Below are positions 12,562-33,698 of a stretch of 35,096 nucleotides of DNA, in pieces; the first letter of the stretch is position 1, and each line of letters starts with the position of its first letter. The notes beneath the pieces were generated by a model. The model saw nothing but the letters and a program-made list of their open reading frames with translations, was not told the DNA's origin and ran no database searches. A program made the translations under genes and the position numbers. This stretch comes from Candidatus Liptonbacteria bacterium. Its GTDB lineage: Bacteria > Patescibacteriota > Minisyncoccia > UBA6257 > 2-01-FULL-56-20. Location: contig JAHFLJ010000009.1 in assembly GCA_023244935.1 (NCBI GenBank), positions 1 through 35,096 on the forward strand, read 5' to 3'.

Positions 12562-14082
12562 TTAAACTTCTTCCTTGAAGCGGAAGGTCCAGGCTTCCGC
12601 CAGATGTTCCGCGGAAATTTGTTTACAATCGGCCAAATCGGCAATGGTGCGCGCAGTCTTAATTAATCGAAAATATCCGCGCGGGGAAATTTTACTTTTA
12701 TCGAGAGAAGCCAAAAATTTATTGGCATCTTCCCCTACCTCCGCGAGGGTTTCGGTCTGCCTAGAAGTCATTTCGGAGTTGGTAGATATTCCCAGGTTTT
12801 TAAAACGATTTTTTTGGATATGCCGAGCGGCTTCCACCGAAGCACGTATTTTATCACTCTCTCTTTCGGCATTCTGATTCTCGGCGCGCAAATCCGAAAC
12901 TTTTGTTCGGGAAACTTTAACCTGCAAATCAATTCTGTCCAGCAACGGTCCGGATATTTTTCGCTGATATTTAATAACTTCATATGCGCCACACCTGCAT
13001 TCCTTTTCCGGATCTCCATAGTATCCGCAAGGGCATGGATTCATCGCCGCAACTAAAGAAAATTTTGCCGGGAAAGAAAGCGATCCCTTGGCGCGAGAAA
13101 CATTTATTACCCCGTCTTCCATCGGAGACCTCAAGGCCTCCAAAACACTTCTCGGAAATTCCGGAAGTTCATCCAAAAATAAAATTCCTTTATGAGCCAG
13201 GCTGGCTTCTCCGGGTCGTGGGTTCGGTCCGCCCCCAACCACGGAAACCAGAGACGAGGTCTGGTGAGGAGAGCGAAACGGGCGCGTGGCTATAAGTCCG
13301 CCAGGGTGGAGCCCGACCGCCGAATAAATTTTCGTAATTTCAATCGAGTCCTCCCGAGTGAGCGAAGGAAGAATTCCGGCAATGGCTTTGGCAATCATGC
13401 TTTTCCCGGATCCTGGAGGACCAACCATCAGCAGGTTGTGCGCTCCGGCGGCAGAAATTATTGCGGCGCGTTTTGCTTGGAACTGACCTTTGATTTCTGA
13501 AAAATCCGAAATATTTTTATCCTCCCCTGTCTCCGGCGAAAATTCATGCGCCGGTATCTCGATTTTGTTTTCAATAAATTCCAGGGCTTCTTTTAGGGTT
13601 CCAATCGGAATTATTTTTATTCCGTAAACAGCGCTTGCTTCATTTGCATTCTCTTTCGGTAAAAGCAAAAATTCAAACTTTTTGTTACTCGCCATTTCGG
13701 CAATATTCAAAGCTCCGTCAATTGGACGGAGTCGCCCATCCAGCGCGAGTTCCCCCGCAAAAATAAATTTAGAAAAATCGTTTTCCAAAATTTGTTTTGT
13801 CGCTAAAAGATATCCGATGGCGATTGCCAAGTCGTAGTGGGTGCCATTCTTTTTAATTTGAGCCGGCGCTAAGTTCACAGTGATCCGTCGGTTCTCTCGG
13901 TTTGGAGGTTTTACTCCCAAATTTTTTAGTGCAGAGTTTACTCTCTCCTTCGCCTCGTTCACCGCTTTGTCGGCGAGTCCGACAATATTAAAAGAATGGA
14001 GGCCGACATTTAAGTCGACCTCCACCTCAATCGGTTTAGCTTGAATGCCTTCCAGTTCCGCAGAATAAATTTTCGCGGGCAT
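12562..14082 (-). CDS. comM: YifB/ComM-family Mg-chelatase-like AAA+ ATPase
   Basis: VEVDLNVGLHSFNIVGLADKAVNEAKERV; MVGPPGSGKSMIAKAIAGILP; GILFLDELPEFPRSVLEALR; MNPCPCGYYGD. Confidence 0.93.
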   Translation of the reverse strand: MPAKIYSAELEGIQAKPIEVEVDLNVGLHSFNIVGLADKAVNEAKERVNSALKNLGVKPPNRENRRITVNLAPAQIKKNGTHYDLAIAIGYLLATKQILENDFSKFIFAGELALDGRLRPIDGALNIAEMASNKKFEFLLLPKENANEASAVYGIKIIPIGTLKEALEFIENKIEIPAHEFSPETGEDKNISDFSEIKGQFQAKRAAIISAAGAHNLLMVGPPGSGKSMIAKAIAGILPSLTREDSIEITKIYSAVGLHPGGLIATRPFRSPHQTSSLVSVVGGGPNPRPGEASLAHKGILFLDELPEFPRSVLEALRSPMEDGVINVSRAKGSLSFPAKFSLVAAMNPCPCGYYGDPEKECRCGAYEVIKYQRKISGPLLDRIDLQVKVSRTKVSDLRAENQNAERESDKIRASVEAARHIQKNRFKNLGISTNSEMTSRQTETLAEVGEDANKFLASLDKSKISPRGYFRLIKTARTIADLADCKQISAEHLAEAWTFRFKEEV

Positions 14083-31520: not shown

Positions 31521-31641
31521 ATCTACTAAAGATATTATAGCTAATTAAAAAGGAAAATACCCACTAGGCGGGGCAATGTTTTTCTATATTTTCTACTCCT
31601 CCCAACCCCATCTTTCAGTTCTATTTCCTCCTCGAAAATAA

Positions 31642-31661
31642 AATAACCCTTTCGGGTTATT
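31642..31661. terminator. Intrinsic terminator, downstream of minus-strand tRNA-Arg
   Basis: AATAACCC-TTTC-GGGTTATT. Confidence 0.75.
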
Positions 31662-31671
31662 CTATTTAATG

Positions 31672-31743
31672 TGTCCTCGCGAGGAATCGAACCTCGATCT
31701 ACTCCTTAGAAGGGAGTCGTTCTATCCGTTGAACTACGGGGAC
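31672..31743 (-). tRNA. tRNA-Arg (anticodon TCT)
   Basis: Minus: GTCCCCG...CGAGGAC A; ACTCC-CTTCTAA-GGAGT anticodon arm; CGAGG-TTCGATT-CCTCG T-arm. Confidence 0.93.
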
Positions 31744-31842
31744 GAATTTCATCCAGCGTTGATTCTAAATCAAAAATAGTATAATTTAAAGGGGTTGCCA
31801 TTGGTCTCTTGTGGGTTTGTCCCGCTAAAGATTTAGAGAATA

Positions 31843-31913
31843 CGGGCTGTCGTATACCGGTAGTACGTGTGTTTTGGGAACACATAGACAGGGTTCAATT
31901 CCCTGCAGCCCGA
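31843..31913 (+). tRNA. tRNA-Pro (anticodon TGG)
   Basis: CGGGCTG...CAGCCCG A; TGTGT-TTTGGGA-ACACA. Confidence 0.92.
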
Positions 31914-31931
31914 CAAAATCCTGTTTGAAGT

Positions 31932-32005
31932 GGGCGGCTAGCTCAGTTGGTTAGAGCGCTTCATTTACACTGAAGAGGTCACAGGTTCGAATCCTGTGCC
32001 GCCCA
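31932..32005 (+). tRNA. tRNA-Val (anticodon TAC)
   Basis: GGGCGGC...GCCGCCC A; CTTCA-TTTACAC-TGAAG; ACAGG-TTCGAAT-CCTGT. Confidence 0.95.
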
Positions 32006-32109
32006 CTTTGGACAAGATGATATATGGTGAATAGTTGGGAAGTGCTCGCGACTCCTCTTTATATTGAAGTTCTAAATTGTTTCTGCTATTCTGGAATCTA
32101 GCCAATATA

Positions 32110-32180
32110 GCCGGGCTAGCTCATCGGTACCTGCCAGAACGGCGTTGGCAGGCCTGCCTGCCGGCAGGCAGGGAGCGCTA
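32110..32180 (+). pseudogene. tRNA-Phe 5'-half remnant interrupted in the D-loop by a 43-nt palindromic insertion
   Basis: GCCGGGCTAGCTCATCGGTA (32110-32129) + insert 32130-32172 + GAGCGCTA (32173-32180); identical to 32431-32458 once insert is removed. Confidence 0.85.
32130..32172. mobile_element. Palindromic insert (CCTGCCAGAACGGCGTTGGCAGG + CCTGCCTGCCGGCAGGCAGG)
   Basis: Absent from the intact tRNA-Phe copy at the equivalent position. Confidence 0.6.
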
Positions 32181-32196
32181 TAAACGGCATTGCAAA

Positions 32197-32451
32197 ATGT
32201 ATTGCGTTTATACTTTGAAAAGCGAAAAAGACGGGACATATTATACCGGTCTAAGTAAAAATGTAGACAGGCGAGTTTATGAGCATAATAAAAACGATAC
32301 CAAAAGCACAAAATCTAAAAAGCCATGGGTTTTGGTCTACGTTGAAAAATGTGAATCGTTAAAGCATGCTAGAGAGCGAGAAAAGTTTTGGAAGAGTGGA
32401 GAGGGAAGGGATCTGAGAGATAAAATAATTGCCGGGCTAGCTCATCGGTAG
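32197..32451 (+). CDS. GIY-YIG nuclease-family protein
   Basis: MYCVYTLKSEKDGTYYTGLSKNVDRRVYEHNKNDTKSTKSKKPWVLVYVEKCESLKHAREREKFWKSGEGRDLRD; start reassigned to 32197; stop codon lies inside tRNA-Phe. Confidence 0.85.
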   Translation: MYCVYTLKSEKDGTYYTGLSKNVDRRVYEHNKNDTKSTKSKKPWVLVYVEKCESLKHAREREKFWKSGEGRDLRDKIIAGLAHR

Positions 32452-32502
32452 AGCGCTACCCTGAAGAGGTAGGCGTGCCCAGTTCGACTCTGGGGCCCGG
32501 CA
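32431..32502 (+). tRNA. tRNA-Phe (anticodon GAA)
   Basis: GCCGGGC...GCCCGGC A; CTACC-CTGAAGA-GGTAG; CCCAG-TTCGACT-CTGGG. Confidence 0.95.
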
Positions 32503-32692
32503 CAAACAAATTTAAATTAATAGCGACAAGAGAGGTGATATAATCCAAATTACCTTTGGAAGAGGTAGGCGTGCCCGAGTTCCCTGCCTGCCGGCAGGCA
32601 GGGACTCTGGGGCCCGGCACAAACAAATTTAAATTAATAGCGACAAGAGAGGTGATATAATCCAAATTACCTTTGGAAGAGGTAGGCGTGCC
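32463..32692 (+). repeat. Tandem repeat of ~96 bp: tRNA-Phe 3' half plus 3' flank, two copies and a 17-nt partial third
   Basis: Unit starts GAAGAGGTAGGCGTGCC at 32463, 32559, 32676; unit lengths 96 and 117 (= 96 + 20-nt insert + 1 nt). Confidence 0.92.
32583..32602. mobile_element. 20-bp perfect palindrome CCTGCCTGCCGGCAGGCAGG inserted in the T-loop of the second tRNA-Phe 3' copy
   Basis: Empty site GTTC^GACTC in copy 1 (32482-32490) vs GTTC-[20 nt]-GACTC in copy 2. Confidence 0.7.
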
Positions 32693-32737
32693 ATGAGTGT
32701 AGTCGAAGGGTAAATAATTCGCGCACTGAATTCTCGT

Positions 32738-32765
32738 TTGACTTTTCACGGAGTGAGAATAAAAT
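32738..32765 (+). promoter_or_regulatory. Candidate promoter, TTGACT-N16-TAAAAT
   Basis: -35 32738-32743, -10 32760-32765, same layout as 33776-33803. Confidence 0.55.
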
Positions 32766-32800
32766 GGATTAAAGGGTTAAACAAAAAAAGATAAAGCAGA

Positions 32801-33097
32801 ATGAATTTCGAAAAACCAAATTTGGAGGGACAGGAGGAGCAGGAAGCGGACTGGGCAAAGGCCGCTCGCTTAGAGGCGGAGTCCGCGGAAGAAGCAAGAA
32901 ATAACGAACTTGAAGAGATTAACAAGTCAGCGGAGGAGGCGGCCAGAAAAAAATTAGAAGGGTTTGCTATAGACAAGCTCACTGGTGTTTATGCAGAAAT
33001 CGGGTATGCCGGCGTTGTGCCCAAGACGGCGGTAGATTCTTTTATAGATGCTATGTCCGTCGAGCAAAAAAAGAAAATACTTTTGGAAGGCGAATAG
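32801..33097 (+). CDS. Small acidic hypothetical protein
   Basis: 98 aa, Glu/Ala-rich N-terminus; own promoter and terminator. Confidence 0.65.
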   Translation: MNFEKPNLEGQEEQEADWAKAARLEAESAEEARNNELEEINKSAEEAARKKLEGFAIDKLTGVYAEIGYAGVVPKTAVDSFIDAMSVEQKKKILLEGE

Positions 33098-33101
33098 ACA
33101 G

Positions 33102-33141
33102 CACAAATAAAAATTCCCCGGAAGGGGGATTTTTATTTGTG
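33102..33141. terminator. Intrinsic terminator
   Basis: CACAAATAAAAATTCCCC-GGAA-GGGGGATTTTTATTTGTG. Confidence 0.85.
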
Positions 33142-33182
33142 TGCTATTGGTCAGCAATTATTTCACATGCTAAAATATTTAC

Positions 33183-33698
33183 ATGAATATCCACCCACTT
33201 TTTGTGCATTTCCCAATAGCGCTACTTGCGATATATGCGGTGCTAGAGTTAGTCCGAATCAAAAAGATTAAAGACTTCACAGCTTGGATTTATATAAAAG
33301 CATCTTTTCTATTCGTCGGAGTTGCCGGAGCTCTCGCTTCGTTAGAGACAGGAGAATCGGCCGCTGAATTTCACCGCGACCAAAGCGAACTCGTAAGGAT
33401 GCATGAGACATTTTCACAGCTAACAACGGCAATTTTTCTGATTTTGGGCATTAGATATTTTTTTGTAGTGGTCGACAAATTGTTTGGAGAGAAAATTAGG
33501 TCTTCCAAATGCCAAAAATTCTGGAGCAATTCTTTGATTTTCGTAACTAAAATATTCTCCGGCTGGTTGCTGGTTGCGCTGGCTTTAGTTGGAGTGACGG
33601 GATTGGTTATAACCGGAGCTCTCGGAGGAACGATTGTCTACGGGCCGGACATGGATCCGATAACTACTTTTGTAAACAAGCTTTTGTTCGCGAAATAG
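33183..33698 (+). CDS. DUF2231-like membrane protein
   Basis: MNIHPLFVHFPIALLAIYAVLEL...ETGESAAEF; four TM segments. Confidence 0.75.
   Translation: MNIHPLFVHFPIALLAIYAVLELVRIKKIKDFTAWIYIKASFLFVGVAGALASLETGESAAEFHRDQSELVRMHETFSQLTTAIFLILGIRYFFVVVDKLFGEKIRSSKCQKFWSNSLIFVTKIFSGWLLVALALVGVTGLVITGALGGTIVYGPDMDPITTFVNKLLFAK

Follow-up and report, generated by a model that had tools for sequence, protein, structure and literature searches.

Interrupted tRNA genes, GIY-YIG nuclease genes and palindromic hairpins at a tRNA-Phe locus of Candidatus Liptonbacteria and in other bacterial phyla

How does one short palindrome come to occupy two different arms of tRNA-Phe copies, with an intact tRNA-Phe lacking it in between? 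The question is raised by the window, that is, the whole stretch of 35,096 nucleotides from a Candidatus Liptonbacteria bacterium analysed here. A sequence-only reading had proposed a mobile REP/MITE-like palindrome that targets hairpin loops. The palindrome, hereafter P, is CCTGCCTGCCGGCAGGCAGG in its 20-nt form, and a 16-nt form occurs in some loci. It was found exactly at both sites that had been named (Table 1), and this is beyond chance, as P had no match, even with up to 3 mismatches allowed, in 100 dinucleotide-shuffled versions of the window. In the T-loop copy it lies, as claimed, between GTTC and GACTC, and the intact tRNA-Phe reads GTTCGACTC at that point. The D-loop insert of the 5' remnant is indeed 43 nt long (32130-32172), consists of two hairpins, CCTGCCAGAACGGCGTTGGCAGG and then P at its end, and has no counterpart in the intact tRNA. 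Copy starts are spaced by 96 and then 117 (96+21) bases, which agrees with the unit lengths announced (96 vs 96+20+1).

Table 1. Features of the tRNA-Phe locus, in coordinates of the window
Feature	Position	Strand	Basis
tRNA-Phe 5' remnant (tRNA positions 1-28), D-loop interrupted	32110..32180	+	tRNA 1-20 exact at 32110-32129, GAGCGCTA at 32173-32180
First hairpin insert, CCTGCCAGAACGGCGTTGGCAGG	32130..32152	.	folds as hairpin
Palindrome P, flush with D-loop/3' D-stem border (GGTA^GAGC)	32153..32172	.	exact sequence match
GIY-YIG nuclease ORF, 84 aa	32197..32451	+	PF01541 E 4.5e-17; reading frame
Intact tRNA-Phe(GAA), the empty site	32431..32503	+	ARAGORN; RF00005 56 bits
Group I intron 3'-end scrap	32525..32558	+	alignment to end of G001 tRNA-Phe group I intron
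tRNA-Phe 3' half (anticodon onward), T-loop interrupted	32559..32620	+	
Palindrome P in T-loop (GTTC^GACTC)	32583..32602	.	exact sequence match
Second tandem copy: intron 3' end and first 17 nt of the 3' half	32642..32692	+	

The locus is thus ordered as a 5' tRNA-Phe half, a GIY-YIG nuclease ORF, an intact tRNA-Phe, a group I intron scrap and a 3' half. The earlier description had the tRNA remnants and P right and passed over the GIY-YIG ORF that separates the 5' remnant from the intact tRNA. Likewise, what it called tandem copy 2 does carry P in its T-loop but is not a whole tRNA; it is a 3' half, in front of which lies a group I intron 3' end. The stop codon of the nuclease ORF falls within the intact tRNA-Phe, and the GIY-YIG residues Y5, Y16, G18, R26, H30 and E62 are invariant in an alignment of 16 relatives. 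An open frame at 32077-32451 includes P and would encode ..QACLPAGRER.. there; such a peptide, given by in-frame P, could turn up in annotated proteins of these genomes.

The intron scrap scored 62 against the end of the tRNA-Phe intron of a relative, G001, and 1000 shuffles reached at most 28. The G001 intron is an RF00028 group I intron in the anticodon loop, and because the scrap aligns with its last bases, the resident tRNA-Phe gene of the window probably held an intron at some time. RF00028 gave no match at E<=1 in window positions 31600-33200, where only the 34-nt 3' scrap remains. A group I intron carrying the GIY-YIG ORF was rejected for the window, there being no intron fold around the ORF. 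Among relatives, tRNA-Phe genes with an RF00028 intron in the anticodon loop were seen at L233 (G001) 1499-1867 and L247 (G051), and the sequence of G016 (L246) resembles such a gene but stays below the family cut-off. The G001 intron itself holds a CCTGCC..GGCAGG hairpin.

The reading that we favour, and judge rather probable, has two layers: homing-type GIY-YIG cassettes carrying a replacement tRNA, and mobile hairpins that accumulate in the dead halves. A cassette would consist of a single-domain GIY-YIG nuclease of ~80 aa directly followed by a complete tRNA, and would enter, at the anticodon arm, a resident tRNA gene whose isotype matches that of the carried tRNA. The predicted nuclease would cut the tRNA gene and repair would copy the cassette in, leaving the resident gene's 5' half dead upstream of the cassette and its 3' half, if retained, dead downstream of it, with the carried tRNA replacing the broken one and keeping the cell alive. 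In the second layer, tRNA arms bear short hairpins rich in GC, with P as the most frequent family here, at fixed points: GGTA^GAGC or GGTAGA^GC for the D-arm, TTC^GA for the T-loop and GCT^C for the D-stem. A putative enzyme would insert the hairpins as DNA, either where the sequence resembles (A)TC^GA(T) or where a loop meets a stem. Dead halves would retain them, since such a hairpin would do damage in the only working copy of a tRNA. Selection may even favour the hairpins, as they would interrupt either the direct repeat that the remnant forms with the intact tRNA, through which the cassette could otherwise be deleted, or the leftover recognition site. That the tRNA fragments would stem from invasion by a GIY-YIG and tRNA cassette is what the sequence-only reading appears to have overlooked.

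Evidence for the first layer came from the tRNA-Phe genes of 41 genomes. In G002 (L235), halves reading GCCTGGG..CCCTGAAG (5') and ..GATTCACCGTCCAGGCAC (3') enclose a GIY-YIG ORF and a second tRNA-Phe, GCCGCGG..CCGCGGCACCA, that differs from them. The resident type is whole in the congener G024 (L238), with similar sequence downstream. One orthologous site is therefore filled in G002 and empty in G024, within a single genus. P is in both halves of G002, as the 16-nt form in the D-loop (GGTA^GAG) and as the 20-nt form in the T-loop (GTTC^GATTC). Such a foreign-type carried tRNA was seen in G002; the carried and resident tRNA-Phe of the window are near identical. G020 has the architecture of the window, with P at the same D-loop point, and tRNA-Phe is plain in G011, G023, G049, G021 and others. 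In the window's own genome, a second pair was found at tRNA-Met, where an intact gene adjoins a 5' copy that bears P at GGTA^GAGC. Filled and empty sites for P, which had been claimed from the window, thus exist as clean pairs both in this genome and in relatives.

We then considered the nucleases independently of P. All five single-domain GIY-YIGs of the own genome flank tRNAs. Searching the nuclease alignment against 59 genomes gave 70 loci, which were read, and 71 distinct ORFs. A tRNA on the same strand starts at most 150 bp downstream of 35/71 ORFs and belongs to many isotypes, and about half of the related ORFs have no tRNA directly downstream. Among 19 recognisable 5' remnants beside such nucleases, a sample not selected on P, 14 are interrupted, either in the D-arm or in the anticodon arm, by inserts of 20-71 nt. 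This hairpin excess extends over many sequences, for instance TCGTCCAGAGGACGA or CCCGCC..GGCGGG, and nearly all of the inserts are strong hairpins. P itself is in only 2 of the insert-bearing remnants, one being the window, and other hairpin families occupy the same tRNA arms. The own-genome tRNA-Glu and tRNA-Gln fragments, for example, carry other palindromes, at CGT^CTAG and TTC^GA. A composite palindrome of ~66 bp (TCCCGAT..ATCGGGA) was noticed in two tRNA-Glu fragments (L022 8930-9260 and L124), at the same D-stem point and beside two GIY-YIG genes.

Such an excess raises the possibility that the hairpin is a selected part of the cassette, either spoiling the leftover recognition site, so that the donor is protected from its own nuclease, or silencing the half-tRNA. 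It would fit with unrelated hairpins being found in the D- or anticodon arm of 14/19 remnants and with both halves being marked in G000 and G002. Yet 5/19 remnants are hairpin-free, short nuclease-free loci also bear hairpins, and the intact tRNA, which retains the same sequence, would need protection too. We regard this explanation as possible rather than likely. The own-genome tRNA-Lys(ctt) halves are hairpin-free as well, and several 3' copies are contiguous, i.e., uninterrupted. Because of these contiguous copies and the bare remnants, the hairpin is not obligatory, and a universal T-loop hairpin in 3' halves, which we had entertained, was dropped. A stronger version holds that the nuclease, or a host activity resolving its cuts, would itself write hairpins into the D- and T-arms of displaced halves in a structure-directed two-part system, by which the halves would be labelled dead and the donor allele protected. 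We think this unlikely; if true, palindromes would move without a transposase, by a route used across several phyla.

To see how far the arrangement extends, P in a D-loop was searched in 84,980 species, which gave 76 stretches with 78 sites, from Patescibacteria, Omnitrophota, Bacteroidota, a Nitrospirae and a few other MAGs, MAG titles being liable to misname organisms. The search pattern (P after a D-arm) presets the D-arm, and the informative features are the offset, the truncation and the intact tRNA downstream. The offsets were almost only A^GAGC or GA^GC, most P-bearing copies broke off close to the anticodon, and 57/78 sites were followed by an intact tRNA of the same kind. In 22 of these 57 the intact tRNA was far (about 250-520 bp) and a nuclease was nearly always present; in the other 35 it lay at 140 bp or less and there was no nuclease.

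These short loci bear on whether the tRNA pieces are specially mobile at all. They could result from tandem partial duplication, by replication slippage or template switching, followed by neutral hairpin gain. The prevalence of short nuclease-free loci (35/57), the long duplicated upstream sequence of some of them and the 96-bp tandem repeats of the window are as expected from such a process; indeed, that local tandem duplication could yield the short loci without homing counts against the cassette reading. However, local duplication cannot produce the tRNA of G002, which is unlike the halves around it, nor does it explain the same nuclease family in the same slot beside many isotypes. As an account of the tRNA pieces, it appears improbable to us.

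The recurrence also speaks to a palindrome-born assembly or library artefact. Many sources are MAGs, and two P-bearing contigs (L050, L074) end at the element. Against this, the borders are exact and recurrent and the architecture is common to many independent assemblies, including Sinomicrobium sp. N-1-3-6, the non-MAG, genus-named record of the scan, and the single-contig or curated records CP070684, NZ_CP019384 and MEWB01000001. An artefact is hence extremely improbable. In the Sinomicrobium record (L066), a tandem tRNA-Asn array alternates intact copies with P-bearing ones, in 16- or 20-nt forms. The P-bearing tRNA of L074 still scores as a tRNA (59 bits). Three candidates for a sole functional tRNA with P in its D-loop were rejected, as an intact tRNA-Phe lies elsewhere in the genome for L074, and intact copies are on the same contig for L057 and L082; L059, L101 and L113 are still candidates. 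One Omnitrophota MAG has complete-looking tRNA genes with hairpins in D-stem and D-loop (L101 60-210, L113 5990-6130).

What, then, moves the hairpins? The own genome (712 kb, 31 contigs), of which ~95% was read as stretches, contains 22 exact and ~9 near copies of P, dispersed and at few recurrent points in tRNA arms, in line with the dispersal that had been anticipated. Hairpins with a CCTGCC arm numbered 53/405, and P was present in 50/121 relatives and in 86/380 genomes of the phylum. Copies are also found away from tRNAs. Nevertheless, 11/28 lie within 200 bp of a tRNA, compared with 7.3% of random noncoding positions (p 2e-6). The flanks of the 28 non-D-loop copies tend to ATC^GAT, near the T-loop consensus. 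P is flush with a stem of at least 6 bp at 4/28 of these other sites (3 independent) versus 0.33 expected (0/2000 permutations), and the pairing of all P flanks was weakly above permutation (SW 5.46 vs 4.70; 11/300 reach it). Of these two comparisons, the flush one is the stricter and gave the stronger signal. The flush placement at the borders of other hairpins weakly fits the hairpin-loop idea, the numbers being small. The proposal that P targets hairpin loops is thus well supported for tRNA D- and T-arms, and weakly so elsewhere.

The REP/MITE-like nature initially proposed fared less evenly. As with REP/BIME elements and their RAYT (Y1) transposases, P is a dispersed, intergenic and non-coding palindrome, and its filled/empty pairs are clean. 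It might be moved in trans by a Y1 (TnpA-REP) enzyme preferring hairpin loops, the GIY-YIG being incidental. The 22 exact copies, the clean insertions lacking target duplication and the preference for tRNA arms plus some other hairpins would all suit this. However, the linked transposase that had been predicted was not found: PF01797 had no match in the genome, which is listed as 100% complete, whereas control genomes gave matches. Neither was a GTAG-type (RAYT) tetranucleotide seen beside the 28 non-D-loop copies, whose flanks follow the other motif given above. We therefore hold a REP/RAYT origin to be very unlikely.

Some known systems resemble parts of what is described here. Palindromic elements of Rickettsia and Wolbachia are small palindromes inside genes of reduced genomes; P is much shorter (20 nt), and the likeness is one of description. 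tRNA genes are known as landing sites of large integrase elements; in the present case a ~330 bp cassette with its own substitute tRNA would enter them, at the anticodon arm, in hosts that include ultra-small bacteria with some of the smallest bacterial genomes. Closer to the first layer are the mobile-ORF (mORF) gene hybrids of fungal mitochondria, in Allomyces atp6 and in Glomus atp6, atp9, cox2 and nad3 (PMC3630166). There, an endonuclease ORF in a gene brings a foreign replacement for the part that it displaces and the native end becomes a relic, as with the cassette; in contrast, the cassette described here brings a complete tRNA and a nuclease made up of a single GIY-YIG domain of ~80 aa, its host is bacterial and the relics hold hairpins. 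The second layer recalls the repetitive hairpin elements (RHE) of mitochondria, mobile short GC-rich palindromes (PMC2800124), and the Neurospora mitochondrial palindromes that, as cited there, flank tRNA genes (Yin et al. 1981, via PMC2800124). RHE and the Allomyces double-hairpin elements are short, GC-rich, non-coding single or double hairpins, and double hairpins occur here too; unlike them, those described here are in bacterial chromosomes, inside D- and T-arms of dead tRNA halves beside an intact copy, and are linked to a nuclease. The clustering of P at tRNA genes may be compared with that of RHE as a likeness of behaviour, not of descent. Finally, GIY-YIG insertions outside recognised introns are found in CPR rRNA genes, mostly at tops or bases of stem-loops (PMC11270868), and phage SegB is named alongside them as a near system. 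Our loci differ in that tRNA genes are affected, a replacement tRNA is brought along and the relics are marked by hairpins. None of this is mentioned in that paper, from whose main text the word tRNA is absent.

In the literature covered, to which most subscription papers did not belong, we found no description of the palindrome core, of its read-through protein motif or of GIY-YIG with tRNA fragments in Patescibacteria. A nuclease-tRNA cassette with hairpins as two-layer mobile DNA seems undescribed in bacteria. The cassette would offer a natural path to horizontal replacement of tRNA genes and an origin for the small GIY-YIG genes of Patescibacteria. With many filled/empty pairs having exact borders, the long-standing question of how palindromes move without a transposase becomes testable. 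For annotation, tRNA fragments, P-bearing tRNAs that score as tRNA and ORFs ending within tRNAs would have to be taken as relics of this process.

Other tRNA-associated structures were noted. In the own genome, intact tRNA-Lys genes lie between long inverted repeats at L129 3375-3449 (ctt) and L117 7645-7716 (ttt), each between its own 5' and 3' halves, that is, nested in the anticodon loop of a copy, and nuclease-free. A probable initiator tRNA-Met with an odd D-arm, uncalled by ARAGORN, lies between two P copies at L030 ~13345-13425. A second kind of tRNA-bound repeat follows tRNA-Arg(tcg), Leu(taa), Arg(gcg), Pro(ggg), Lys(ctt) and others (L017, L029, L140, L027, L129); it begins beyond a terminator hairpin and comprises, over ~150-350 bp, a T-arm copy in inverted orientation, a repeated GGAGGGGGTCGGGGAACC..GGTTCCCCGTG.. 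stretch and a sense copy of the tRNA 3' end.
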